NCBI GenBank assembly: GCA_944368065.1
Contig: CALVWV010000044.1
Span: 1 to 35,573, forward strand
DNA length: 35,573 nt
Direction: 5' to 3'
DNA from: an uncultured Clostridia bacterium
Lineage (GTDB): Bacteria > Bacillota > Clostridia > Christensenellales > Borkfalkiaceae
Shown here in pieces: positions 11,814 through 33,896 of the stretch. The notes under the pieces were generated by a model. The model did no database searches and had not been told where the DNA came from. It worked only from the letters and a program-made list of their open reading frames with translations. The position numbers were made by a program, and so were the translations under genes. Positions within the stretch are counted from its first letter, which is position 1, and each line of letters begins with the position of its first letter.

Positions 11814-11988
11814 GCGCGGCGGACGGCTGCGACAGAAAGCTGTGGCGGACAACCGCGGGGACAATTTCGGCGGATAGCTGTAGCGGAAAACCGCGGCGGA
11901 TAGCTGTGGCATACAATTTCGGCGGATAGCCGCGGCGGACGGCTGTAGCGCGCAACCGCGGCGGGAAACCGCGGCGGACGGCGGCTGA
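11814..11988. repeat. GC-rich imperfect tandem repeat
   Basis: About 14 degenerate units of 12-14 bp alternate between CTGTGGCGGACA-like and ACCGCGGCGGATAG-like forms, giving a composite period near 25-27 bp. It occupies most of the 357-base gap between the ferritin-like gene and the zinc-ribbon gene. Open frames across it are low-complexity and lack ribosome sites. The first part of the gap (11729-11813) holds two TTGCAAT-type inverted repeats near 11737 and 11786. Confidence 0.75.
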
Positions 11989-13365: not shown

Positions 13366-13599
13366 TTACAGGCTTTCGTGTATGGTACGCGAAATTACGT
13401 CGTCCTGCTGCTCCTTGGTAAGCTTGTTGAAGTTTACCGCATAGCCAGAAACCCTTACCGTAAGCTGGGGATATTTTTCGGGATGAGCCTGAGCATCGAG
13501 AAGGGTATCGCGGTTGAATACGTTTACATTGAGGTGATGTCCGCCGTCTTCAACGTATGCGTCTATCATATTCACAAGGTTATCTACTCTGTCTGACAT
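13366..13599 (-). CDS. Glycyl-radical domain of pyruvate formate-lyase as a separate small subunit
   Basis: 77 residues started at the ATG preceded by AAGGAG; a start 39 bases upstream gives extra residues with no family match. The whole protein aligns with the C-terminal domain of [40 protein letters not shown] and [17 protein letters not shown]. Gly52 in RVSGYAV is the residue that PflA converts to a radical. The domain is normally fused to the PFL barrel, but here the preceding gene ends exactly at that boundary. It resembles the stand-alone GrcA/YfiD proteins that rescue oxygen-cleaved PFL, yet here it is the only such domain seen and is in the operon, so it is probably an obligatory subunit. 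Last gene of the operon. Confidence 0.92.
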
Positions 13600-13623
13600 A
13601 TTTTTAATCTCCTTAAAAATTTT

Positions 13624-13653
13624 TATTATTTGCGGCATATATGGCGTTCAATT
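13624..13653 (-). repeat. Dispersed imperfect palindrome, copy 2a
   Basis: Reads on the minus strand AATTGAACGCC-AT-ATATGCCGCAA-ATAAT. It lies just upstream of the ribosome site of the glycyl-radical subunit gene and faces copy 2b. Confidence 0.7.
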
Positions 13654-13677
13654 AATTGTGCAATTTTCCTTGCAAAA

Positions 13678-13709
13678 ATTATTGGTTGCGCCATATATGG
13701 GGGTTAAAT
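13678..13709 (-). repeat. Dispersed imperfect palindrome, copy 2b
   Basis: Reads on the minus strand ATTTAACCCCC-AT-ATATGGCGCAAC-CAAT and begins at the TGA stop of the PflB gene. With copy 2a, 24 bases away, it occupies most of the gap between the two PFL parts. The + strand core CCATATATGG is a 10-bp palindrome. Confidence 0.7.
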
Positions 13710-15748
13710 CAGTTTTTGCCGAGCGAATTGGGCGTTACAGAGAAGGTATTTGATATACCGTCGCGCGCGTATTCGTAAGGCAGTTTTGCAACAGATTCAA
13801 GCGACGCGAGCGCACCGTTCTTGTCCCTGCCGTGCATGGGGTTGGCGCCGGGCGCGAGGGGCTGTCCCGCCCTTCTGCCGTCGGGCGTGTTGCCCGTCTT
13901 TTTGCCGTAAACAACGTTGGAAGTTATGGTGAGCACGCTCATCGTGGGCACGCTCTGCCTGTATGTCGTGTGGCTCTTTATTTTGGTCATGAACGTCTTT
14001 ACAAGCCATACGGCGAGCTGGTCCACCCTGTCGTCGTTGTTGCCGTACCTGGGATAGTCGCCTTCGGTGCGGAAGTCGGTTATTATGCCGTCTTCATTGC
14101 GGATGGGATATACTTTTGCGTACTTGATTGCCGAAAGCGAGTCAGCCGCGCAGGAAAGTCCTGCAACGCCCGTTGCAAAGAAGCGGCGCACCTGGGTATC
14201 GTGCAACGCCATTTCAAGCGCTTCGTAGCAATATTTATCGTGCATATAATGAATAACGTTGAGCGTATTCACGTAAAGGCCTGCAAGCCAGTCCATCATC
14301 TGCTCGTACTTTTGCATTACGTCGTCGAAATCGAGAGGACCGTCGCCGAGAACGGGCATGAATTTAGGCGAAACCTGAAGGGGCTTGCCCGTTACCTTAT
14401 CCTTCATGAGCTCGTCAGCGCCGCCGTTGAGCGCGTACAGAAGGCACTTTGCAAGGTTTGCACGTGCGCCGAAGAACTGCATGTCTTTGCCGACGCGCAT
14501 GCAGCTTACGCAGCACGCTATGCAGTAATCGTCGCCCATTTCCTGGCGCATAAGGTCGTCGCTTTCATACTGTATTGCGGAAGTATTTATGGATACCTTT
14601 GCGCAGAACTTTTTGAAGTTTGCGGGGAGGTGCGTAGACCAAAGTACGGTGAGATTGGGTTCGGGTGCGGGACCTAAATTTTCCAGAGTGTGGAGCACGC
14701 GGAAGGAGTTTTTGGTGACAAGCGTTCTGCCGTCCACTCCCATGCCGCCTATCGATTCGGTTACCCACGTGGGGTCGCCCGAGAACAGCTCGTTATATTC
14801 CTTTATGCGCATGAACTTGACTATGCGCAGCTTCATTATGAACTGGTCGATTATCTCCTGAGCCTGTTCCTCGGTAAGGACGCCGCGCTTTAAGTCGCGC
14901 TCTATATAAATATCGAGGAATGTGGAGTTGCGGCCTATGGACATTGCCGCGCCGTTCTGCTCCTTTACCGCGCCGAGATAGCCGAAGTAGAGCCACTGCA
15001 CAGCCTCCTGCGCGTTTGAAGCGGGACGGGTGATGTCCTTGCCGTATGAAGCCGCCATCTTTGCAAGGTTTTTGAGCGCCTTTATCTGGTCGGCAAGCTC
15101 CTCTCTGTCGCGCACCTTTTCGGGCGACATGTCGCCGTTGATGTTGGCTTTGTCCCTTTCTTTGCATGCTACGAGGTAGTCCGTGCCGTAAAGCGCTACG
15201 CGGCGGTAGTCGCCTACTATTCTGCCTCTGCCGTAGGTATCGGGCAGACCTGTGAGAATATGAGCGCGGCGCGCAAGGCGCATTTCGGGTGTATATACGT
15301 CATAAACGCCGTCGTTGTGCGTTTTGCGGTACTTTGTGAATATCTCCTTGACTTCGGGAGCTATTTCGTAGCCGTACATATTGAGCGCCTGTTCAGCCAT
15401 CTTTATGCCGCCGAAAGGCTGGAGCGAACGCTTGAAAGGTTCGTCCGTCTGAAGTCCGACTATCTTTTCGAGATCTTTATCTATATAGCCCGCACCGTGG
15501 GACGTGAGCGTGGAAACTACCGCGGTATCGGCCTTTAAAACGCCGCCTGCGGCGCGTTCCTCGGCGGAAAGCTCCATTACCTTGTCCCAGAGTTTTTTGG
15601 TAGCGTCCGTCGCGGGGGCGAGGAAGCTGTCGTCACCTTCGTAAGGGGTGTAGTTGCGCTGAATAAAGTCGCGTACGTTTACCTCATCGTCGCTCCATTT
15701 TCCTGAAACGAAGCCCTCCCATTCGGGGCGCATTTTTTCATTTGCCAT
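13709..15748 (-). CDS. pflB: Pyruvate formate-lyase catalytic barrel, lacking the glycyl-radical domain
   Basis: 679 residues versus about 740-760 for normal PFL. The enzyme converts pyruvate and CoA to acetyl-CoA and formate. The N-terminal PFL domain is intact ([52 protein letters not shown]), and the active-site pair is Cys412-Cys413 in [15 protein letters not shown]. The protein ends [25 protein letters not shown] and a TGA, exactly where canonical PFL continues into the glycyl-radical domain; that domain follows as a separate gene 109 bases on, in another frame with its own ribosome site. Its start overlaps the stop of the thioredoxin-like gene by 11 bases, implying translational coupling. 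It should need the downstream subunit and PflA for activity. Confidence 0.95.
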
Positions 15749-16040
15749 CTTTATGCTCCTGTAATTTATATTCTATCCAGATATCGAGTATTTCCTGCGG
15801 CTGATAGCCGTGCGCCTCGGCAAAAGGCACGCCGCCGTCCGCAAGGAAGAGTGAGGGAACGGTTGAAACCTTCCACTCCTTTATAAGATTTTCCGCCTCT
15901 TCGGCGTCGAAATAGTAAAAGGGTATGCCCGCGTCAGCCGCCGCCTGCCTTGCCGCAGGCATAAGCTGATGACAGCCGGCGCAAGCCGAACCGCCTATTT
16001 CCACAAGGCAAAGACCTTTGAAGTCGAATGTTTTTGCCAT
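15738..16040 (-). CDS. Thioredoxin-fold protein in the PFL operon
   Basis: 100 residues, the length of a single thioredoxin domain. It has CAGC (Cys20 and Cys23) after a short VEIGGSA strand, and the cis-Pro segment [12 protein letters not shown]. The usual WCGPC context is replaced by SACAGC, so it is a divergent thioredoxin-like protein rather than standard TrxA. No signal peptide, so cytoplasmic. It lies between pflA and pflB and overlaps pflB by 11 bases. A plausible job is redox care of PFL or of the PflA cluster (reduction of the Cys412-Cys413 pair, for instance), but this rests on position only. The ribosome site (AAGG) is weak. Confidence 0.82.
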
Positions 16041-16060: not shown

Positions 16061-16093
16061 GTGCATTGGTTGGGGCATATACAGGGGTCAATT
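16061..16093 (-). repeat. Dispersed 33-bp imperfect palindrome, copy 3
   Basis: Reads on the minus strand AATTGACCCCT-GT-ATATGCCCCAAC-CAATG, 25 of 33 positions like copy 5. It sits in the 130-base gap between pflA and the thioredoxin-like gene, about 20 bases before the latter's start. I see no convincing promoter in the gap. Confidence 0.75.
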
Positions 16094-16170
16094 AAAATTT
16101 TTTTAATTTTTTTGCGCAAAAATTTTGGCAAGAAAATCAAAATCTGATTTTAAGGAAATTACCTTGAAAG

Positions 16171-16908
16171 TTATATCTCTTTCGCGGTGCAGAGTATCTC
16201 TTTCGCGCGCTCCACACTCTCCTTTTCGGGAGGGTTGACGCCCGCAAGCGGATAAGCAATGCCGAGGTTTTTATACTTTACCTCGCCCATTGTATGGTAT
16301 GGAAGCACCTCCACCCGCTTTACCGTTTTAAGCGTGTCAATGAATGCGCGCGTGCGCCTGAGATATTCTTCTCCGTCTGTAATGCCCGGCACGAGCACCT
16401 GCCTTATCCACATATCCTTGCCGTTTTCCGAAAGGTATTTTGCAAAGGCAAGCTCGTTTTTGTTGTCGAAACCCGTAAGGGCTTTGCAGCCTTCGGGGTC
16501 GATGTGCTTGATGTCGAGTAAAAAAAGGTCGGCATGCTTTATGAGCTCGGCGTGCTGCGCTTTGCTCTTTTCGCTCTCTTTGTTGAACGTCATGCCCGAT
16601 GTATCCACCGCGCAGTGCACGCCCTCCGCTTTGAGTATGCGGAAAAGTTCGGTGACAAACTCTATCTGAAGGAGCGGTTCGCCGCCGGAGACGGTAACGC
16701 CACCGCCGCCGCGCCAGTACTTTTTGTAGCGGAGCGCGTTGGACGCAACCTCTTCGGGGGAATATTCCTTGCCGCCGAAGACGTTCCACGTATCGGGATT
16801 ATGACAGTATTTGCACCTTAAGGGACAGCCCTGCATGAATACGACAAAGCGGATGCCGGGTCCGTCTACAGTGCCGAAACTTTCAAACGAATGAATTCTG
16901 CCAACCAT
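16171..16908 (-). CDS. pflA: Pyruvate formate-lyase activating enzyme (radical SAM)
   Basis: 245 residues from the Met of MVGRIHSFESFGTVDGPG, which matches the family N-terminus and has AAGG seven bases upstream; another in-frame ATG 36 bases further out (16944) is less likely. The cluster motif is CPLRCKYCHNPDTW (C-x3-C-x2-C, with the PflA HNPDTW signature), followed by GGGVTVSGGEPLLQ and the DTSG and LDIKH segments that bind S-adenosylmethionine and shape the barrel. It generates the glycyl radical on Gly52 of the small subunit encoded downstream. First gene of the operon, behind a ZTP-type riboswitch leader. Confidence 0.95.
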   Translation of the reverse strand: MVGRIHSFESFGTVDGPGIRFVVFMQGCPLRCKYCHNPDTWNVFGGKEYSPEEVASNALRYKKYWRGGGGVTVSGGEPLLQIEFVTELFRILKAEGVHCAVDTSGMTFNKESEKSKAQHAELIKHADLFLLDIKHIDPEGCKALTGFDNKNELAFAKYLSENGKDMWIRQVLVPGITDGEEYLRRTRAFIDTLKTVKRVEVLPYHTMGEVKYKNLGIAYPLAGVNPPEKESVERAKEILCTAKEI

Positions 16909-16979
16909 AAAACAGCCTTGAAATAATTCAATGCGGTAAAACATACTTTGGAATATGCCTTCACCGATTAACGGGGGTT

Positions 16980-17041
16980 AAAAAAAGGGCGGTTAACATT
17001 ATACTGCGGAAAATTATACCGCTTGAGTATAACGACTGCCC
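16980..17041 (-). terminator. Riboswitch-controlled intrinsic terminator ahead of pflA
   Basis: On the minus strand GGGC (17041-17038) pairs with GCCC (16990-16987), GTTATACT with AGTATAAT, and GCGG with CCGC, followed by seven T. The first GGGC is also the 3' end of the aptamer (CTGGGC), so aptamer folding and terminator formation exclude each other. Confidence 0.8.
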
Positions 17042-17130
17042 AGACGAACGACAAAAAAACCTTACGCCCCGCCGTTCCACCGCGGTTATGCCTGAAGGCT
17101 TTCCGCTTATATTCGTCAGTTGCGGCGGGC
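17038..17130 (-). promoter_or_regulatory. ZTP (pfl motif) riboswitch aptamer
   Basis: Reading the minus strand: P1 is GCCCGCCG with CGGCGGGGC (17130-17066); the junction carries ACTGACGAA, matching the ACUGGCGAA of known ZTP aptamers; P2 is GCGG/CCGC closed by a GCCT/AGGC hairpin; GGTGGAAC follows P2; and the 3' domain is CGTTCGTCTGGGC, matching the known CCGCCUGGGC. The pseudoknot covaries: GACGAA (17117-17112) pairs with TTCGTC (17048-17043), where the type sequence has GGCG with CGCC. ZTP signals low 10-formyl-tetrahydrofolate. PFL supplies formate for that cofactor, so switching pflA on with ZTP makes sense. Class assigned from memory of the consensus. Confidence 0.85.
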
Positions 17131-17149
17131 TTCTTTTCTTTACGAATTG

Positions 17150-17435: not shown

Positions 17436-19955
17436 TCAGTCAGCGTTGACATTTTCAGACTTGAATACAAACTCGCCATCTTTGTTTACGTTGACGGTAA
17501 CTTTTTCGCCCGGAAGAACGTGACCTGCAAGAATTTCGTCGGAAAGTCTGTCTTCTATGCGCTTCTGCACCACCCTCTTCATGGGGCGGGCGCCGTAGTC
17601 TTCGCTGTAGCCTTCGGAAAGCAGTTTATCCATTGCCGCGGGCGTGATTTTGAGCGATACGTTTTTGACCTTAAGCTTTTCTTCAAGCCCCGCTATTATC
17701 TTTTCGCAGATTTTGCCCTGCTCTTCGCGCGTGAGCTTGCGGAAGATTATTATATCGTCCAGCCTGTTCAGAAATTCGGGCTTGAACTGCTCGCGCAAGG
17801 CTTCCATAATATTTTCACGCATGTCTACGTAGCCGTCGTCTTCATCCGAACGGAAACCGAAGTTGGACATCTTTTTAATCTGGCTAGCACCGACGTTGGA
17901 CGTCATTATTATTATGGTATTCTTGAAATTAATTACCCTGCCTTTGCTGTCCGTAAGGCGACCGTCGTCGAGTATCTGCAAAAGTATGTTGAATACGTCG
18001 GGATGGGCCTTTTCAATCTCGTCGAAGAGCACAACGCTGTAAGGCTTGCGCCTTATTTTTTCGGTAAGCTGTCCGCCGTTGTTATCGTCGTAACCGACAT
18101 ATCCCGGAGGCGCGCCGATGAGCTTGGACACGGTGTGCTTTTCCATGTATTCGGACATGTCAAGCCTTACCATAAGTTTTTCGTCGCCGAACATGCACTC
18201 GGCAAGCGCCTTTGCAAGGTCGGTTTTGCCCACGCCCGTAGGACCTACGAAAATGAAAGAACCTATGGGCTTGTTGGGCTCGTTGAGACCCGCCCTCGCC
18301 CTGCGGATTGCGCGCGCAACGGCAGATACAGCTTCGTCCTGACCGACTATGCGCTTATGCAGATTTTCTTCGAGATGCAAAAGTTTTTCGCTTTCCTGTT
18401 CGGTGAGCTTTGTTACGGGCACACCCGTCCAGCCGCTTACGATATCGGCAATTTCGTCCGAACCGATGCTCGGCGCGTTGGTCTGCGTGCCGCCCTTCCA
18501 GTCCTTTCTGGCGATGTTTATCTGCTGCTGTACGGCGTTGATTTCGTCCACAAGCTTCTGCGCCTGGGAATAATTTTCGTCCTTTGCCGCCTTGGTCTTT
18601 TCCATGGTAAGGCGCTTTAACTTATCTTCGAGCTCCTTTACCGCCTCGGGCATGTTGTAGCTGTTGAGACGGGCGCGCGACGCCGCTTCGTCGATAAGGT
18701 CTATGGCTTTGTCGGGAAGATATCTGTCCGTTATATATCTGTCTGAAAGCGTAGCCGCCGCAATTATCGCCTCGTCGGTGATGACTACTTTGTGGTGCGC
18801 TTCGTACTTGTCGCGCAGACCGCGCAGTATTTCAACGGTATCTTCAACCGAAGGTTCGTCCACCTGCACGGGTGTGAAACGGCGTTCGAGCGCAGCGTCC
18901 TTTTCTATATACTTCCTGTACTCTTCAAGCGTAGTTGCGCCTATAGTCTGAAGTTCGCCGCGGGCAAGCATCGGCTTTAAAATGTTTGCCGCGTCCATGC
19001 TGCCGTCGCTCGTCGCGCCTGCGCCGACTATCTGGTGAATTTCGTCTATGAAAAGTATTACGTTTCCCTTGTTTTTTACTTCGGTTATGGCGTTTTTAAG
19101 CCTTTCTTCAAAGTCGCCGCGGTACTTTGAGCCCGCCACCATGCTTGCAAGGTCGAGCGAAAATACTATTTTGTTTTTGAGAAGGTCGGGCACTTCGTTA
19201 TTTACTATCGCCTGGGCAAGCCCTTCCACCACCGCAGATTTGCCTACGCCCGGCTCGCCGATGAGCACGGGGTTGTTCTTGGTGCGGCGGGAAAGAACCT
19301 GTATTATTTTGTCAATCTCTTTCTTTCTGCCGATTACGGGGTCTATTTTGCCCTCGCGCGCCTTCTGCGTGAGGTTGACGCCGTACTTTTCAATCTCGCC
19401 GCCGAGAGATTCGCTCTTGCGCTCCTGACGGGAAGCGGGGCGGGGCTTTTCCGTACCCAACGAGGAAAAGAAGGACGCAAACGGGTTGCTTTCTTCAAAG
19501 TCGCTCTCCTCTTCGGTGAGCCCCTCGTGTATAACCACCTCGAGCTTTGAGGCGAGGCGGGTGACATTCACGCCCATGGCATTGAAAATGCGCATTGCAA
19601 GGCAGGTGGGCTCCGCCATTACGGCGTAAAGCATGTGTTCGGTGCCGGCGAGAGCGTCGTCGCCGCCGAGAGCTACCGCAAGTTCGACCGCCTGCATGAG
19701 CATGTGTTTTGTGCGGGGCGTAAAGCCCTTAATGTTTGACTGCTGGTCGATGGAGCGCGCGAAGTAAGCCCTGAAGGGCGCTTCTTCAACCCCGCACATC
19801 TCCATAACCTTGCACGCCGTGCACGCGGGCGTGTTGAGCATTGCAAAAACTATATGTTCGCTGCCTACGTAGCTCGAGCCGAAAAGATCGGCCGCGCTTT
19901 CGGCTTTGTCTATAACTTCGACAAGATTAGAAGTAAATTTTCCGTAATCTTCCAT
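17436..19955 (-). CDS. clpC: ATP-dependent Clp protease ATPase subunit ClpC
   Basis: 839 residues, full ClpC length. It unfolds substrates and feeds them to ClpP; in Firmicutes many substrates are arginine-phosphorylated by McsB. Order: double Clp_N repeat (about 1-145), a linker (146-190), AAA+ domain 1 with Walker A GEPGVGKS at 233-240 and [10 protein letters not shown] as Walker B, the coiled middle domain with a UVR-like part, AAA+ domain 2 with GPTGVGKT at 571-578, and the Clp D2-small domain near the end ([13 protein letters not shown]). The ATG follows AAGGAGG. It is third in the operon, 165 bases after mcsB; that gap holds repeat copy 4. Confidence 0.97.
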
Positions 19956-20049
19956 ATGGCTTTTTACCTCCTTTAAGGTGTGGCGGCGGAGCCTGAAGCG
20001 CCGCCTGCCGCAAGGCTGAAATTTTGCCGCAAATTTGCGGAAATTTTTG

Positions 20050-20082
20050 AATTGACCGCGATATATGCCGCAACGAATTCAG
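20050..20082 (+). repeat. Dispersed 33-bp imperfect palindrome, copy 4
   Basis: Reads AATTGACCGCG-AT-ATATGCCGCAAC-GAATT on the + strand, in the gap between mcsB and clpC, 38 bases past the mcsB stop. A small palindrome CCGCAAATTTGCGG lies next to it. Confidence 0.75.
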
Positions 20083-20120
20083 ATTGTACGCGCAGTCGCG
20101 GGCTTGTTTCTGTTTTTATT

Positions 20121-21137
20121 TTATCTGGCTGAGGCAAGTTTTTTTATGTGCGCGGAGGCGTACTCGGCGCGGTAAACGTCGCGCTCGCCAGCGGTGAGTT
20201 CCCTGCCCGCGGATATGTTCATGTTGTACGGCTGCATTCGCGCCACAAGGTCGTCTATGTCGGATACGTTGGCAATCGGGATATACCCGAGGCACGCGCC
20301 GAGCTTTATGTCTGCGGCAAGGCGGGTGAGCTCTACCGAAGAGAGCACCGCGCAATTTGTTGCCACGCCGTACGCGCGCAGGCATTTATCCTTTACGGTA
20401 AGCCTTGCCGAACCTGTTTTAAGCTTGTTCCTTTCGGCATTTTCAAGCGCGCATATCTTTTGCGCCACTTCGTCTACCTGGGAAATTATCTCGTCTTCGG
20501 AAACGCCTAAGGTGACCTCGTTGCTGACCTGATACATATACCCTTCGGCTTCGCTGCCCTCGCCGTATATGCCGCGCACGGTGAGCCCCAGACGGGATAT
20601 CGAACGCACCACCTCGCGCATGTTTCCGTTTAATGTAAGCGCCGGCAGAAAGAGCATTACGGAAGCCCTTAACCCCGTGCCGAGGTTTGTGGGGCAAGCC
20701 GTAAGATAGCCGAGCTGTTCGTCGTAGGCAAATTTTATAGACCTGCCTATCTTGCTGTCTATCGCCGAAAGCCTGTCGTACGCGCGCTTTAGGTGCAGCC
20801 CCTTTATTATGCACTGTTCGCGCAGATGGTCCTCCTCGTTAATCATTACCGATATGCTTCTGTCCGAATTTATGAGCGCCGCCGCGGAGCGCTTGCGCGC
20901 GATAAGGTCGGGGCTTATCAGGTGGTTTTCCTTTAAGGAATTGGCCTCCCACTCGGATATTCCGTCCATATAGTAAAGTTTGAAATCGTCCAGGCGGTTG
21001 AGCCCCGAGGATACGAGGCGGATTATCTCCTTAGCCTGCTTTTCGTCCTTTAAATGCGAGGGGAAAGGGTAACCTTCGAGATTGCGCGCAAGCCTTATGC
21101 GCGTCGATACGAGCGTTCCGTCTGAAATGTTGCTCAT
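20121..21137 (-). CDS. mcsB: Protein arginine kinase McsB
   Basis: 338 residues, normal for McsB (about 350). It phosphorylates arginines on proteins, marking them for ClpCP. Phosphagen-kinase features: STRIRLARNLEGYPFP at the N-terminus, MINEEDHLR with the catalytic acidic residues, GYLTACPTNLGTGLRASVMLFLPAL, and SRLGLTVRGIYGEGSEAEG. The start codon overlaps the mcsA stop by four bases (ATGA), and GGAGGG precedes it inside mcsA, so the two are translationally coupled. Its activator McsA is encoded directly upstream. Confidence 0.96.
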   Translation of the reverse strand: MSNISDGTLVSTRIRLARNLEGYPFPSHLKDEKQAKEIIRLVSSGLNRLDDFKLYYMDGISEWEANSLKENHLISPDLIARKRSAAALINSDRSISVMINEEDHLREQCIIKGLHLKRAYDRLSAIDSKIGRSIKFAYDEQLGYLTACPTNLGTGLRASVMLFLPALTLNGNMREVVRSISRLGLTVRGIYGEGSEAEGYMYQVSNEVTLGVSEDEIISQVDEVAQKICALENAERNKLKTGSARLTVKDKCLRAYGVATNCAVLSSVELTRLAADIKLGACLGYIPIANVSDIDDLVARMQPYNMNISAGRELTAGERDVYRAEYASAHIKKLASAR

Positions 21138-25850: not shown

Positions 25851-25883
25851 CTGCATTGGTTAAGGCATATGCCGTACCCTTTT
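25851..25883 (-). repeat. Dispersed 33-bp imperfect palindrome, copy 6
   Basis: Reads on the minus strand AAAAGGGTACG-GC-ATATGCCTTAAC-CAATG. The right half is near-identical to copy 5, the left half has drifted. Core GGCATATGCC is a perfect 10-bp palindrome. It ends 9 bases from the Crp/Fnr stop codon. Confidence 0.7.
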
Positions 25884-25892
25884 GATTTTTTG

Positions 25893-26552
25893 TTAATTAT
25901 CCTTATTGAAACCCGTAAGGGTAAACTTGTTTTTGCAAAAGTCAATCAGCCCTTCCTTGCGCATTCTGCCAAGCTCTTTGGAAAGCGCGCTGCGCTCCAC
26001 GTTGAGATAGTCCGCCATCTGCTGGCGGTCGAACGGAATTGTGAACTGTTTAGACCCCGCGCGCACCGCTTCCGCCGAAAGGTACGTCATCACCTTTGTC
26101 CTTATCCCCTTTGACGATATGCAGAATATCCTGTCCGTCAGAACAAGGTTTTTGTTGGCGGAAAATGAAAGAAGATTGTAAACAAGTTTTTCGCGCCACG
26201 TTTTGCCTTTGGTCGACTCTGAAAAGAGCACGTCGAGGTTGACCATAAGCACCTTGCAGTCCGCCTCCGCCGTTGCGTTCACCATTACCGGCACATTGCA
26301 GAAAGCGTACGTTTCGGCAAACGACCCTCCGACCCCGACATTGTGCAGTATTATTCTGTTGCCCCACAGGTCGATGTTTTCTATATGAATTTTGCCTGAT
26401 ATCAAAATGCCGAACTCGCGGGTGACGTCGCTGGTGCGGAAAATCACCCTGTCCTTTCTGTACTCTGCAACGCGCACGCAGCCGCAGGATAAAAGCTCTT
26501 CGTACTCCTCATCGGTCACGCCCATAAAAATTATGTGATTGATGTGCGACAT
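25893..26552 (-). CDS. Crp/Fnr-family transcriptional regulator
   Basis: 219 residues: an N-terminal cyclic-nucleotide-binding-type barrel (REFGILISGKIHIENIDLWGNRIILHNVGVGGSFAETYAF) and a C-terminal winged helix (DRQQMADYLNVERSALSKELGRMRKEGLI). There is no Fnr-type N-terminal Cys cluster; two Cys in LLSCGCVRV are present, but the effector is not predictable. It is divergent from a ferredoxin-type gene, and a perfect palindrome of Crp/Fnr style lies between them, so autoregulation and activation of the divergent operon are likely. Ribosome site weak. Confidence 0.92.
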   Translation of the reverse strand: MSHINHIIFMGVTDEEYEELLSCGCVRVAEYRKDRVIFRTSDVTREFGILISGKIHIENIDLWGNRIILHNVGVGGSFAETYAFCNVPVMVNATAEADCKVLMVNLDVLFSESTKGKTWREKLVYNLLSFSANKNLVLTDRIFCISSKGIRTKVMTYLSAEAVRAGSKQFTIPFDRQQMADYLNVERSALSKELGRMRKEGLIDFCKNKFTLTGFNKDN

Positions 26553-27878: not shown

Positions 27879-30800
27879 TCAATCGGGCAGAATCTGAAGC
27901 TCGCCCAACGATTTTTCTATATTGTAATTTTCTGTTACGTCGTTGCCGTCCTTATCGGTTATTACAATTTTTCCTATAGTGTTTTCCGTCTTGCCTATAT
28001 CGGTTATGGCACCGGTAACCTCTACCGTAATTTCATGTCCTTCGGCGAGGCTGCCGCTCGATATCCAGTAGTAGCCGTTGGCAAGCGGACTGCCGTCGTA
28101 CTTTTTGGAATCGGAAACCGTGGATATCGTTATAGGGCGCCTGTCTACAGACAGCACATCTTTGCCCGCAAACTCTACCACGAAGTCTGTGCCTTCAATA
28201 AGCCTGGTATCGCCGTTGTAAACTTCTATCGGCAGATTCTTTAAAGTATTAGTGGTCAATACGCCCGCATCGGTAAGGCTTACCCCCTCCAAACTGAATA
28301 ATAAACTCCAGCCGTCGGGCAGTCCCGTTACATAGTAATCATCCGCATTGTATTCAAGCACCTTGCCGTCGTAATACTTCTGCAATATGTAAGGATGTAT
28401 TGTTATTATAGGACATCCCACCACTTCAAGGCTGCCAGGAATCAAGGTGAGGTCCAGCGCTTTGACCTCGCTGCCGTCAGGGGCGTACAGCTTAAAGGAA
28501 GAGATATAGCTTTCTGTTTTACCGACTTCGGTTATGCTGCCCGAATATTCCACTTCGTAGGTGTAACCTTCGGCAACAAGCTCGCGCAAAAGAAGTCTGC
28601 TTTCGTTATCTGCGCCCTCAAAAGAATCAGCCACGAGGGGCAGACCGTCATAAGTCTTTATCTTATCTTCGGGCTTCAACATCAGTTCAATCTTCTGCTC
28701 GTCAATCGTGCCCGAGCCGCCCGAACCTGAACCGCCTGCGCCTGCACCCGTTACTTCAACCTTTACCCAGCCCATGCCGTCTATGTATACTTCTACCCAG
28801 GCGTGAGCGGTGTTAGGGCCGACCTCCGTCCAGGAGCCTGCGGAAGTAGTGCCTACGTAACCTATGGAATAGCGCGCGGGTATTCCGAGGGCTCTGTAAA
28901 GAAGCGTTGCCGCACTCGCATAGTGCTGGCATATGCCTTCGTGATACTTTGAAAGGAATGCAACTACTATGTCGTCCTCTTTATCCAGTCCCTTGTCATA
29001 ATCGAGATTGTATGTCGCAGCGTTCTGTATGTACGCGGCAACTTCAGCAATTATATCGGAATTGGTTACCGAGAAGCCGTTCTGACGTATAAGCTCGTCA
29101 AGATAACTTCTCGTGCCGTCAGGAACGTTCAGGTAATTTGCATACACATAGTCTCTGTACGCGCGTTCGGCCTGCGTAAGGTAACCGTCAAGCGAAACCG
29201 TTACCGCGCCGTCTGTAACATAGTCGTACACATAGCAGTAGAACGAATATATCGAAGATACATCGCCCTTGTACCATACGTCGCTCGTCTGAACGGTGTA
29301 ATCAGGTTCAGTACCTTCCCTTTCAGCAGCCATATAATACGGAAGCAGATAGTCTGACGTGAGCATCTGTATGCTCATATACGTACTTCCGACCCCTGCC
29401 GACCCCAAGACCATGCCCGTAAGATAGTTGTATCCGTATTTTCCGTCAAGCAACAGCCCGTAGTCCTGAGCTTTGCTCCAGCTCTTTCCGCTGTAATCGC
29501 CGAAGCTCATAAGTCGGAAATAGAAAGTTCCGCTTGCATCGGAATATACGCGGAAGGTTACGGCATCGCCACTTCCGCCCGAGCCGCCGCCTGCTATTAT
29601 GCCGCTTGTATCAAGGTCGCTCGCTTCGCCCGAGCCGTCTTCGCTAGAGCCGCCTTCGCCCGAGCCGCCTTCACCCGAGCCGCCTTCACCCGAGCCGCCG
29701 CCCGAACCGTCTCCGCCCGAGCCGTCTTCGCCCGAACCGCCTTCGCCCGAACCGCCTTCACCCGAGCCGCCTTCACCCGAGCCGCCGCCCGAACCGTCTC
29801 CGCCCGAGCCGTCTTCGCCCGAGCCGCCTTCAGACTCTTCAACGATTGTAAGCGTACCGAATTCGTATGTTATCGAATAGTTGTCAGTTACATCGTTTTC
29901 GCCATCGGGCGCGCCTTCAATAAATATTGTGACCGTGCAACTGTTTTCCTTGCTTCCGACATCGATTATGACAGCGAAATCATCAGCCGAATAATCGTGC
30001 CCCGAAACAAGGTCATAATATTGTCCGTTGTATTCGCCGGGCTTAATGAAACACTCCTCCCAGCTGTGGGGCAAGCCATCATATTTCCACTGATAACTTT
30101 CAGTGACTACAATTATGGGGCGGGGTATAACTTCAAGTTTTCCGTAAACGACATCTATATGCGCAAACGCCGTCATGTCCTGTCCGTCTGCAGAATAAAC
30201 TTTTATTTCCGCAGTATTTGAAACAGAACCCGCATTTACAATGTAACCCTCACAATTTACTGTATAGGTGAATTCAAGATTTTCAAATCCGGCGCCCAAA
30301 GTACTCGTTGCCGTGTACTCGCTGTTAGTGAGCGGAGTTGCATCGTAAACCTTTTCGGCGCTTCCTGTTGTCACCACAAGTTCGCCAGGAATCATTACTA
30401 TAAGCTGACCTTCAGAATCACAGACATAATAATTTCGGGTGACGTCCCTGTCGCCGTCCGTTATTTTTACGCTGTCAAGGTCGACATAATTCACGCCCTT
30501 TCCTATCTCTGTCTGACTGCCGTATGTTTCGGCATACAGAGTATGTCCTTCCACGAGCCTGAGCTCGGAAGTTACTTCATACAATTCACAGGTAAGAGGC
30601 GTACCGTCGTAATCTTTGGTTGCGTCCCCCGCTTTTATTGTTATCGGACGCGCGATTACCGTGAGCGTGCCGTCTTCGCAGGTTATTTCGTAGTTGGCTG
30701 TTACGTCTTTTCCGTCCGCGGCAGTTATCTTTATGGAATCTTTTATTACGGAATTAGGACTCGTGCCTACATCCGTCTGACTGCCGTCTGCTTCAAAGTA

Positions 30801-33800
30801 AAGGGTATGACCTGCCACTATTCCGAGCTCGGATACTATGATGTACTGCGTGCTCGTGAATGGTTCGCCGTCGTATACTCTGCTTACATCGTCAAGCTTT
30901 ATCGTGACGGGGCGCGCGGTCACCGTGAGCGTGCCGTCCTTGCAAGTTATTTCGTAGTTAGCCGTTACGTCTTTGCCTTCTGCGTCTGTTACATTTAAGG
31001 TGTCTTTTATAACAGAATTAGAGCTTGTGCCCACATCCGTCTGGCTGCCGTTTGCTTCAAAGTAAAGGGTCTGACCCGCCACTATTCCGAGCTCGGATAC
31101 TACGCTGTACTGCGTGCTCGTGAATGGTTCGCCGTCGTATACTCTGCTTACATCGTCAAGCTTTATCGTGACGGGACGCGCGGTCACCGTGAGCGTGCCG
31201 CATATGCAGCTGATTTCGTAGTTAGCCGTTACATCTTCTTCGCCATCATATACTTTAAGCTCAAGTTCATTTGCTGCAGTTCCGACGTCCGTTATGCTTG
31301 CGCATGTTTCAACGACTGTTTTTTGCCATTCAACAAAGCCATACAGACTTTCCGATGACACTTCATAATCTGTCTTGCTGTGAGCCTCGCCGTCATATAT
31401 CCACTCTCCGTCCGCCGTAATTACCGTTACGGGGCGAGCGGTTACTGTGAGCGTGCCGTCTTCAAAGGTTATTTCGTAGTTTGACGTTACATCTTTGCCG
31501 TCGGGCGCCGTTATTTTTACAATTTCTTCCGAAATGCTGTTAGTGCTGCTGCCGGCTGCCGTCTGACTGCCGTTTGTTTCGGCATACAGAGTATGTCCTT
31601 CCACGAGGCTGAGCCCGGAAGTTACTTCATACAATTCACAGGTAAGAGGCGTTCCGTCGTATACTTTGGTTGCGTCGCCAGCTTTTATTGTTATCGGGCG
31701 GGCGGTCACCGTGAGCGCGTCGGATACATAACTTATACTGTAATTTGAAGTTACTTCTGTATTGTCTTCGGCAAAAATCCTGACAGTTAAAATATTTTGC
31801 GTGCTGCCGACGTCGGTTATCGTTGTAAACGTATCTACAACAGGCTGATGACCTTCAACAAAGCCGTAAGGACTGTCTTCCGTCAACACAATCTCCGTAT
31901 TGCTGTGAGGCTGTCCGTCGTACACCCACTCACCGCCTGAATAATGCAAGATTACAGGTCTGCGCTCTACGGTAAGCGTGCCTGCTTCATACGTAACGGC
32001 GAAATTGCCCGTTATATCGTTGCCGTCCCCGTCCGTTATCTTTAAACTTCCTTCCACAACGGTATTAAAGCTTGTGCCTGCATCTGTCTGGCTGCCGCAT
32101 GTTTCGGCATAGACATCCGCAATTCTTATCGCCGATATAAAGGTAATAGTGCCGCACGTCAGAGGAGTGCCGTCGTATACTTTTGACGCGTCGTCTGCCT
32201 TTACGGTAGCGGGGCGGGCAGTCACCGTAAGAGTGCCGTATATGTAGCTGATATCGTAATTTGCAGTCACATCCCTGTCGCCTGCCGATATGCCGACAAC
32301 AAGGACGTTATCAATCACAGAAACATCTTTAATCGCCGCGCTGTCGCTTACAACAGTTGTGTGTCCCTCTACAAGACCGTATTCGCCGTCATCGGAAACG
32401 TAGTGCCCCTTCTGGCTGTGAGCCTCGCCGTCATACATCCATTTGCCGTCCGATGTTACGACAGTTACAGGGCGGGCAGTCACCGTGAGCGCGCCGTTTA
32501 TGTATGTAATCGAATAATTTGACGTTACATCATTACCGTCGCCGTCCGCAACCGCAAGTCCGAGCGCGTTTTCCACGCTTCCGACATCGGTAATGCTCGT
32601 TTGTTCTGCGACTGAGACGCTGTGACCAGATATAAAACCGTATTCGGCATAGCCGCTGACAAGCTCGCCTTCCGTTACGACCTCGAATTTATCGCTGCCG
32701 TGAGTCGCACCGTCGTAAACCCAACCGCCTTCAGACGTCTGCACAACGACGGGTCGTGCGGCAACTGTGAGAGTGCCCGCCTTTAAAAATACCGAATAGT
32801 TTGAAGTTACGTCATTTCCGTCGCCGTCTTTGATAATAAAGCTGAGTAAATTTTCCGTTTGTCCAACGCCTGTGATTTCGGCATAATCGGACACGGTTAT
32901 CGTATGACCTTCGACTAAGGAAGAATCCTCCGAAAGCTGATAATCTTCGGAATCCGCGCACGAAAGAGCCTGCCCGTTGTAAACTTTTTCGGCATCGGAC
33001 GAGGTTATGTACAGCGGGCGTTTTTCTACCGTAAGGATACCCGCCTGAATGTTAATGTTGTAATTGCCCGTAACTTCGACTTTGCCGTCGTCCGTGTTGC
33101 GGTAAATTTTTATTTCGGGCAGATTTTCAACCTCGCCCGCGTCGGTGATGTTGTCATCAAATACGGCATACAGTTCGTCGCCTTCGGCGAGCGGCGTTTC
33201 TGAAGACAGCTCGTACTCGCTGCTTTCAAAACGGTTGCCGTCGTAAACTGCAGAACCGTCGCTTACAATCACATCTATGTCGCGCTTTACAAAATCTATT
33301 ATGCCGCCAACGGGATTGATTTTGTACGACGCGGTTACGTCGTTGCCGTGAGAGTCGGTAATTTTTATGCCGCTCTTGTCGGGCAGAACTGATGTGGACT
33401 GAGCTGTTATGTCATCGTATATGAACGAGGTGCACTCTATGGTGTCGCCGTATTCGAGCTCGGCTGTCACCGAAGGGTCAACGCCGTATTTTACCGAAGT
33501 CTGGTCTATCGCAACGTTTATGCTTTTGGGTTCTATGACAAACGCATAAGCTTCGCCGTAGCGCTTGCCGCCGAAAATATTAGAAGAAACTGCCCTGACC
33601 TGGTAACTGCCGGCAGTTACGGGCTGCTCCTCCGACCATTCGTCGCTGCCATCGGCGCGGTATTCGTAGTATACGCTTCTGAAAACTGCATTGGCGCGGT
33701 AGCTTACAGACTGACCGTAAGTTAACTGCGAGGGACATTCAACCACATCATATACAATTCCGCACACGGCAAAGAACGCCGCAATGATGCACAGCGCGGC

Positions 33801-33896
33801 TGCGAGCAACGAAATTATAAGTATGCGGAAACGCTTTATTGTTTTTAATATGTCCGCAAATTTTATTACTTTTTTGCGATATTTTTCGTAAAGCAT
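27879..33896 (-). CDS. Giant membrane-anchored YDG/MBG-repeat protein with transglutaminase-like domain
   Basis: 2005 residues. One N-terminal membrane segment (about 28-50) with a basic start anchors it. Then come about 14 repeats of 75-95 residues in the MBG/YDG style, each with a VYDG-like start, a VEGHT/GSQTDVGT middle, a GNDVTSNY segment and a GTLTVTARPV end. A Gly/Ser/Glu linker follows, then a domain shared with the neighbouring gene, then a transglutaminase core with Cys1656 (GICQHYAS) and His1698 (NTAHAWVEV), another Gly/Ser linker, and three more repeats. The third catalytic position, Asp in the usual WxxVDPT, is Glu1714 here. A surface role in crosslinking or adhesion is inferred. 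The start has an AGGGGA ribosome site, 39 bases after the paralogous gene. Confidence 0.9.
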   Translation of the reverse strand: MLYEKYRKKVIKFADILKTIKRFRILIISLLAAALCIIAAFFAVCGIVYDVVECPSQLTYGQSVSYRANAVFRSVYYEYRADGSDEWSEEQPVTAGSYQVRAVSSNIFGGKRYGEAYAFVIEPKSINVAIDQTSVKYGVDPSVTAELEYGDTIECTSFIYDDITAQSTSVLPDKSGIKITDSHGNDVTASYKINPVGGIIDFVKRDIDVIVSDGSAVYDGNRFESSEYELSSETPLAEGDELYAVFDDNITDAGEVENLPEIKIYRNTDDGKVEVTGNYNINIQAGILTVEKRPLYITSSDAEKVYNGQALSCADSEDYQLSEDSSLVEGHTITVSDYAEITGVGQTENLLSFIIKDGDGNDVTSNYSVFLKAGTLTVAARPVVVQTSEGGWVYDGATHGSDKFEVVTEGELVSGYAEYGFISGHSVSVAEQTSITDVGSVENALGLAVADGDGNDVTSNYSITYINGALTVTARPVTVVTSDGKWMYDGEAHSQKGHYVSDDGEYGLVEGHTTVVSDSAAIKDVSVIDNVLVVGISAGDRDVTANYDISYIYGTLTVTARPATVKADDASKVYDGTPLTCGTITFISAIRIADVYAETCGSQTDAGTSFNTVVEGSLKITDGDGNDITGNFAVTYEAGTLTVERRPVILHYSGGEWVYDGQPHSNTEIVLTEDSPYGFVEGHQPVVDTFTTITDVGSTQNILTVRIFAEDNTEVTSNYSISYVSDALTVTARPITIKAGDATKVYDGTPLTCELYEVTSGLSLVEGHTLYAETNGSQTAAGSSTNSISEEIVKITAPDGKDVTSNYEITFEDGTLTVTARPVTVITADGEWIYDGEAHSKTDYEVSSESLYGFVEWQKTVVETCASITDVGTAANELELKVYDGEEDVTANYEISCICGTLTVTARPVTIKLDDVSRVYDGEPFTSTQYSVVSELGIVAGQTLYFEANGSQTDVGTSSNSVIKDTLNVTDAEGKDVTANYEITCKDGTLTVTARPVTIKLDDVSRVYDGEPFTSTQYIIVSELGIVAGHTLYFEADGSQTDVGTSPNSVIKDSIKITAADGKDVTANYEITCEDGTLTVIARPITIKAGDATKDYDGTPLTCELYEVTSELRLVEGHTLYAETYGSQTEIGKGVNYVDLDSVKITDGDRDVTRNYYVCDSEGQLIVMIPGELVVTTGSAEKVYDATPLTNSEYTATSTLGAGFENLEFTYTVNCEGYIVNAGSVSNTAEIKVYSADGQDMTAFAHIDVVYGKLEVIPRPIIVVTESYQWKYDGLPHSWEECFIKPGEYNGQYYDLVSGHDYSADDFAVIIDVGSKENSCTVTIFIEGAPDGENDVTDNYSITYEFGTLTIVEESEGGSGEDGSGGDGSGGGSGEGGSGEGGSGEGGSGEDGSGGDGSGGGSGEGGSGEGGSGEGGSSEDGSGEASDLDTSGIIAGGGSGGSGDAVTFRVYSDASGTFYFRLMSFGDYSGKSWSKAQDYGLLLDGKYGYNYLTGMVLGSAGVGSTYMSIQMLTSDYLLPYYMAAEREGTEPDYTVQTSDVWYKGDVSSIYSFYCYVYDYVTDGAVTVSLDGYLTQAERAYRDYVYANYLNVPDGTRSYLDELIRQNGFSVTNSDIIAEVAAYIQNAATYNLDYDKGLDKEDDIVVAFLSKYHEGICQHYASAATLLYRALGIPARYSIGYVGTTSAGSWTEVGPNTAHAWVEVYIDGMGWVKVEVTGAGAGGSGSGGSGTIDEQKIELMLKPEDKIKTYDGLPLVADSFEGADNESRLLLRELVAEGYTYEVEYSGSITEVGKTESYISSFKLYAPDGSEVKALDLTLIPGSLEVVGCPIITIHPYILQKYYDGKVLEYNADDYYVTGLPDGWSLLFSLEGVSLTDAGVLTTNTLKNLPIEVYNGDTRLIEGTDFVVEFAGKDVLSVDRRPITISTVSDSKKYDGSPLANGYYWISSGSLAEGHEITVEVTGAITDIGKTENTIGKIVITDKDGNDVTENYNIEKSLGELQILPD
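29632..29833. repeat. Tandem DNA repeat encoding the Gly/Ser/Glu linker
   Basis: Inside the giant gene. A 9-bp motif (Gly-Gly-Ser / Gly-Glu-Gly units) is organised in a larger period of about 87 bp (29 residues), present twice with few changes plus a partial third. Such sequence can change copy number by slippage or recombination. Confidence 0.8.
30640..31190. repeat. Nearly identical adjacent YDG-repeat units
   Basis: Two neighbouring domain repeats in the giant gene are almost the same at DNA and protein level (both begin ARPVTIKLDDVSRVYDGEP and differ at about a dozen residues), pointing to a recent in-frame duplication. Confidence 0.75.

Follow-up and report, generated by a model that had tools for sequence, protein, structure and literature searches.

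A pyruvate formate-lyase encoded by two genes in an uncultured Clostridia bacterium, with the glycyl-radical domain on a small chain of its own

Results

Organization of the locus

The stretch of DNA analysed here (the window; 35,573 nucleotides, contig CALVWV010000044.1 of assembly GCA_944368065.1) comes from a gut bacterium and carries the genes of a pyruvate formate-lyase (PFL) in two pieces. PFL, which is usually one protein, converts pyruvate and CoA to formate and acetyl-CoA; in many anaerobes it is a main route by which sugar is turned into acetyl-CoA, and oxygen destroys its glycyl radical. The following features make up the locus:

13366-13599, minus strand: small subunit S, a stand-alone glycyl-radical domain of 77 aa (PF01228, 85 bits; NF038360; TIGR01255 positions 662-744)
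13600-13708, minus strand: spacer of 109 bases, with a dispersed-repeat hairpin followed by an AAGGAG ribosome-binding site
13709-15748, minus strand: pflB, large subunit L, the PFL barrel of 679 aa without the radical domain (TIGR01255 positions 1-662)
15738-16040, minus strand: thioredoxin-like protein of 100 aa with a CAGC motif, overlapping the pflB start by 11 bases
16171-16944, minus strand: pflA, the radical-SAM PFL-activating enzyme (TIGR02493, 307.6 bits; cut-off 231.75)
17031-17133, minus strand: ZMP/ZTP riboswitch (pfl RNA motif) ahead of pflA (RF01750, 47.6 bits; gathering score 39)

A first-pass annotation, made from the letters of the window, had claimed that pflB stops at the end of the barrel and that the radical domain follows as a separate 77-residue gene, 109 bases on, in another frame and with its own AAGGAG and ATG. 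Both observations held. The large open reading frame (ORF) ends in SLGKN-TGA after 679 aa, and the ORFs of the window place L and S in different frames with exactly 109 bases between them. The mechanical ORF list gives S as a 90-aa version, starting at an ATG 39 bases upstream of the 77-aa start.

The spacer folds with -24 kcal/mol (z -3.6). Its hairpin belongs to a dispersed palindromic repeat with the core CATATATGGCG, for which 41 matches were found in the organism's own genome (E up to 1, the spacer copy included, many of them weak). Copies in the window lie at 13600-13708, 16062-16108, 20050-20085 and 25852-25898, between longer ORFs or at their edge. We considered whether the spacer repeat was an insertion that broke pflB, and rejected this: spacers of 20-24 bases in relatives of the same genus leave no room for the hairpin, so the repeat is not required for the split.

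Other features of the window were recorded in passing. Adjoining the PFL genes (17436-21137, minus strand) are a Clp-family ATPase, whose best NCBIfam matches, ClpB and ClpA, are both under cut-off, and a McsB-like arginine kinase (366.9 of 385 bits). An ORF of 2005 aa with internal repeats of about 264 bases occupies 27879-33896 (minus strand); that it encodes a surface protein is a guess. At 11817-11988 there are short tandem repeats whose spacing is a multiple of 13 bases.

The two chains together cover a canonical PFL

The large chain by itself exceeds the TIGR01255 cut-off (1093.1 vs 994.2 bits) over positions 1-662 of the 744 in the model, and aligns to residues 4-676 of E. coli PFL. It lacks the radical glycine of PFL. 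The Cys412-Cys413 site, described as intact in the first-pass annotation, is so, and is invariant in 27 aligned large chains. The glycyl-radical loop is present on the separate small gene, with Gly52 in RVSGYAV; S covers TIGR01255 positions 662-744 and aligns to residues 683-758 of E. coli PFL. Laid end to end, the chains therefore cover the model from 1 to 662 and from 662 to 744, in agreement with the earlier claim that little or nothing is missing. Since L ends at E. coli residue 676 and S starts at 683, the interruption is confined to a linker of about six residues. In a PFL the barrel and the radical loop usually share one polypeptide; the window enzyme has them in two ORFs, and we do not hold a single polypeptide to be necessary for function.

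The predicted structure of L had a mean pLDDT of 78.4, with values below 50 at residues 609-634, 642-647 and 664-679 and in four shorter stretches. Its best fold match was 2pfl in a structure library reaching to 8 April 2026, and the PDB entries 38la and 38lb, discussed below, were not among the best 50 fold matches listed from that library. For another large chain, one that has a C-terminal tail, the AlphaFold model was of low quality (mean pLDDT 58.6) and was not used.

Scored against models of autonomous radical domains, S lies over the GrcA3 cut-off (NF038360; 160.3 vs 158 bits) and under those of GrcA (TIGR04365; 98.3 of 170 bits) and GrcA2 (NF008341; 103.2 of 145 bits). Other small genes reach 166.7 (Lancefieldella) and 164.1 bits (R. 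flavefaciens) against NF038360, and the best fused radical domain in a sample of 299 genomes reaches 143.5 bits. A similar domain also occurs in 1539 of 50697 phage records.

No other PFL was found in the genome

The genome that contains the window is a draft of 1.70 Mb in 52 contigs, 83% complete. PF02901 gave one match in it. PF01228 matched the split pair and one protein on another contig, which is the anaerobic ribonucleotide reductase NrdD, and the GrcA model gave no match besides S, itself below cut-off. The earlier suggestion that the separate domain is the only one thus stands for the portion of the genome that is assembled, and the second full-length pflB that had been named as the finding to speak against it did not turn up. 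Because of the 83% completeness, absence of a second PFL is likely, not certain. In a relatives set of 61 genomes, a second full-length PFL was found in 0 of the 21 split genomes, the window's own included. An intact PFL to repair, with which GrcA/YfiD proteins co-occur, was accordingly found neither in this draft nor in the 21 split genomes.

Relatives within and beyond the genus are split at the same point

Among 37 genomes of the same genus, all drafts, 20 had the split form, 9 had a fused gene (two of these being fragments with an intact junction) and 8 had no PFL match. A genome of another family in the relatives set (G045) was also split, and SLG(K/R) comes right before the end of the large chain in all 21 split genomes. 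The stop-to-start spacer measured 20 to 353 bp in the 20 split loci of the genus, and 1 to 446 bp over 99 split loci overall. With the same boundary in 20 of 37 genomes of one genus, the split cannot be chance.

Split forms were then looked for at greater distances. In an order-level sample of 396 evenly drawn genomes, they occurred in at least three families (f1, f10 and f32) among the matches listed. In a phylum-level sample of 299 genomes, two were over the GrcA3 cut-off, the window's own and one other (G650); thus the split is rare at that sampling depth. Among public species genomes, of which at least 582 encoded a relative, the best 80 matches to S were kept; as best matches to a split protein, they indicate the distribution of split forms and not their frequency. 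In none of the 80 did S share an open frame with a large chain (the locus L088 starts at a contig edge). A shortened large gene lay directly upstream in 67, and the remaining 13 had none in the retrieved stretch. The taxa include Clostridia, Ruminococcus, Erysipelotrichaceae, Anaeroplasmataceae, Collinsella, Olsenella, Lancefieldella and Gastranaerophilales, and so span Bacillota, Mycoplasmatota, Actinomycetota and Melainabacteria. Both genes are present at four loci recorded under strain names rather than as MAGs, in Lancefieldella rimae ATCC 49626, Collinsella sp. An2, Olsenella uli An733 and Ruminococcus sp. YE71, and no second TIGR01255 match over cut-off was found in any of these four.

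Genomes of 12 of the 13 loci without an upstream large gene were searched (L088 was left out). In 9 of these 12 (G727-G733, G735 and G738), which had been chosen because their best S lay apart from L, there was a second, separate S besides one adjoining L. The large gene was a fragment in 2 of the 12. In G737, L and S are on different contigs, with no small gene in the 1500 bp after L.

Split loci fall into two types by tail length. Type I, to which the window belongs (59 of 99 loci), usually has the order pflA, thioredoxin-like gene, L, S, and its large chain ends 1-7 residues after LG(K). Type II (40 of 99) is found in Ruminococcus, Coriobacteria, Gastranaerophilales and others. Its large chain (e.g. 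L077, L092 and L112) has a tail of 15-50 residues, often containing VFxGDLDI or a variant and, in 21 of the 40, a cysteine; pflA, where found, is downstream of S. One broken reading of L (L096) was left out of these counts.

Both genes evolve under constraint and diverge together

The median dN/dS over the 20 split loci of the genus was 0.054 for S and 0.083 for L (190 pairs, of which a pS below 0.7 kept 133 for S and 173 for L). In 8 fused loci the radical domain gave 0.083 and the barrel 0.082 (28 pairs, 23 and 26 of them used). By these ratios the small gene is under strong purifying selection. Of 100 split loci, 99 have RVSGYAV and one has RVSGYAI. The CC site is present in 96, and the remaining four are fragments beginning beyond that site; 4 of the 100 loci are repeat entries of identical sequence. 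The distances among large chains and among small chains were correlated (0.683 over 92 loci, vs a maximum of 0.115 in 1000 permutations). A ribosome-binding-like motif preceded 96 of 99 small-gene starts in a loose scan that is biased toward such starts.

These results bear on the earlier claim of a clean domain-boundary split rather than decay, and on its proposal that relatives be searched for the same split. The boundary found in 20 of 37 genomes and the S ratio of 0.054 both support that claim. Judged from this record, the split two-gene PFL is neither decay nor an assembly error.

Fused genes lie within a split clade

Large-chain trees were built from 146 rows (FastTree) and 65 rows (IQ-TREE, quick). 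The split proteins fall into two groups in them. Inside the first split group lie ten fused genes from the window's family, with 79-84% identity to the window L; two others of the family, about 61% identical, lie outside it. A single clade of all split rows was rejected (p 5.6e-5), the group tested having been defined after inspection of the first tree. The 65-row tree can be explained by 4 changes when re-fusion is permitted, and forbidding it calls for 14 separate splits, all at one position; several branches bearing on re-fusion have support below 95.

The nesting of fused genes in a split clade, new here, suggests re-fusion within the genus, and a history of one old split followed by a few re-fusions is favoured. 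Since the linker has its usual seven residues in 11 of the 12 fused family genes lying close to the window, repeated splitting or recombination may also account for the pattern. Besides the window, 4 of 14 split loci and 8 of 10 fused loci have the ZTP riboswitch ahead of pflA, but 0 of 5 loci of the second split group do; the same locus seems to hold the gene in either form. The fused forms in the same genus show that this niche can be occupied without the split.

A thioredoxin-like gene accompanies the split gene in the window's clade

The small protein encoded ahead of pflB has a thioredoxin domain (PF00085, 32.1 of 23.5 bits) and a CxxC motif, and falls below the TrxA model (TIGR01068, 25.2 of 96.8 bits). 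In 25 aligned relatives both cysteines of CxxC and a GxQPxEI motif are invariant. A profile of these 25 gave strong matches (106-135 bits) in 19 of the 61 genomes, all of them split and all beside L, and the next-best match scored 55 bits; as 11 of the 25 profile rows came from the searched genomes, the strength of the matches is partly built in, but the absence elsewhere is not. Of the 21 split genomes 19 thus have the gene next to L, as against 0 of the other 40 genomes, an association brought out by this analysis. The two split genomes without it are G022 (67% complete, its contig cut inside L) and G023.

In 17 single-genome searches, G023 again included, the gene was found in 3 of 7 type I genomes (G727-G729; absent from G023, G181, G218 and G749) and in 0 of 10 type II genomes. 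Over 51 loci, it lay beside L in 36 of 41 split loci (35 by search, one by eye) and in 0 of 10 fused loci. A test on independent pairs, which offered 2 to 4 contrasts, gave no significant association between the split and the gene.

Discussion

A probable two-subunit enzyme and its alternatives

We consider it very probable that L (PflB-L) and S form a two-subunit pyruvate formate-lyase. The sequence supplies the parts, the exact boundary, the lack of any other PFL match, purifying selection on both genes, distances of L and S that correlate, and the presence of pflA in the same gene row, downstream of a ZTP riboswitch. In the proposed mechanism, L would hold the substrate barrel and the catalytic cysteine pair, and S would carry the glycine that the activase PflA turns into a radical. 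S would dock on L at the site taken by the C-terminal domain of an ordinary PFL, and the radical would pass from Gly52 of S to Cys412-Cys413 of L. That the two can form an active complex is suggested by an engineered E. coli pair, a PFL truncated to residues 1-695 (tPFL) with a truncated YfiD (truncYfiD). Once activated, this pair had a wild-type-like turnover, with an apparent kcat of 204 vs 105 per second for PFL, according to the excerpts of PMC8683613 on which we draw. In the same excerpts the radical of this pair, whose cut comes nearest to the one in the window, amounted to 2.7 uM vs 17.2 for PFL, binding between tPFL and YfiD was too weak to measure, and tPFL:YfiD was activated 32-fold less than cPFL:YfiD. 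For comparison, the KD of cPFL:YfiD is 14 uM. Since these tPFL pairs bind and activate poorly, a working split enzyme would need an adaptation.

A further step is plausible, namely the exchange of S after oxygen damage. The excerpted text of PMC8683613 describes how oxygen cuts E. coli PFL at Gly734 and how YfiD restores activity; by analogy, and as the first-pass annotation had proposed, an S cleaved by oxygen at its glycine could be swapped for a fresh one, so that 77 residues rather than the whole enzyme would be replaced. The exchange step is what a permanent two-chain enzyme would lack. In that account, which shares the two-subunit reading and denies exchange alone, the gene broke at a harmless loop and the pair co-evolved. 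We regard it as a serious contender, somewhat short of an even chance. The adjacency of the genes in 67 of the best 80 loci and the correlated divergence of L and S fit it, and the fused genes nested among split ones in the genus suggest that either form works. The second, separate S in 9 of the 12 chosen genomes and the unlinked genes of G737 count for exchange and against this account. Retention of the split across several phyla also speaks against it, as do the small gene's own start, its ribosome-binding-like motif in the loose scan and spacers of 1-446 bp, which would allow S to be made in excess.

If S were a spare part alone, with L working in some other way or S serving another glycyl-radical protein, the name of NF038360, 'autonomous glycyl radical cofactor', and the passing of the PFL cut-off by L alone would be readily understood; yet L has no radical glycine, no intact PFL was found for S to repair, and S scores below the GrcA and GrcA2 cut-offs, which together leave this account very improbable. 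Decay or misassembly in one metagenome bin might be suspected in a draft of 52 contigs at 83% completeness, but recurrence of the boundary in 20 genomes of the genus and in named strains, together with a dN/dS of 0.054 for S, makes it almost negligible, and the assembly error that the first-pass annotation had held out as fatal to its claim is rejected by this recurrence. Just as scant is the chance that programmed ribosome bypass or frameshifting, guided by the spacer hairpin, joins both ORFs: the spacer does fold well (z -3.6), but the hairpin is a dispersed repeat, spacers over the 99 split loci range from 1 to 446 bp with varied content within the genus, and 96 of 99 small genes have a start and a ribosome-binding-like motif of their own by the loose scan.

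Within the two-subunit reading, the thioredoxin-like protein may keep the active-site cysteines of L reduced, since the absence of S would leave them exposed. More speculatively, and with a chance that we set rather low, PFL in the window's clade could be a three-part enzyme, in which a barrel is joined by an expendable radical subunit and a dedicated thioredoxin-like protein. The last would keep the exposed cysteine pair reduced, or chaperone the barrel, while S is away; its gene would have been lost on re-fusion. The type II tail, with a cysteine in about half of the loci, may serve the same protective end in cis.

Relation to known systems

The window pair shares with ordinary PFL (PflB, TIGR01255; E. 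coli 1h16 and 2pfl) the barrel, the CC site, the glycyl-radical loop and the activase PflA. It differs from E. coli PFL in being two polypeptides, cut in the linker between residues 676 and 683. With YfiD/GrcA (TIGR04365; 6owr) it shares a stand-alone RVSGYAV domain, residues 18-77 of S aligning to 68-127 of YfiD. Unlike YfiD, S lacks a disordered N-terminus of 60 residues, its own N-terminus aligning to the PFL stretch just before the radical loop, and no intact PFL for it to repair was found. S passes the NF038360 (GrcA3) cut-off, whose name implies a repair cofactor, whereas here it is the only radical subunit of PFL found. The engineered tPFL(1-695):truncYfiD(61-127) of PMC8683613, as far as the excerpts go, is likewise a catalytically competent PFL cut before the radical loop with a separate domain. 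The laboratory pair is cut about 18 residues later and shows poor binding and activation, whereas the window pair is natural and carries the stretch ahead of the radical loop on S.

Two PDB entries listed as 'Formate acetyltransferase' resemble L. The chain of 38lb matches the Lancefieldella large chain all the way through the C-terminal tail and is therefore a native split large chain. The other, 38la, ends two residues after LGK, like the window L, and is probably one as well, although its end may be engineered. No small chain of either was among the PDB matches of S. Thus the small family is already known in NCBIfam as GrcA3, and at least one large chain of this kind is in the PDB. Neither these two points nor the wide occurrence of the arrangement, the thioredoxin-like gene and the ZTP riboswitch figured in the first-pass annotation. 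We found no description of a native two-chain PFL in the open-access literature searched, including the excerpts of PMC11528403 and PMC12338860.

Significance

A natural and widespread split that places the vulnerable part of the enzyme on a separate chain makes subunit-swap repair of radical enzymes directly testable in anaerobes. The genus provides a case of domain fission with apparent re-fusion, and with it natural pairs for the comparison of one-chain and two-chain enzymes. The split PFL also points to a thioredoxin-like partner.
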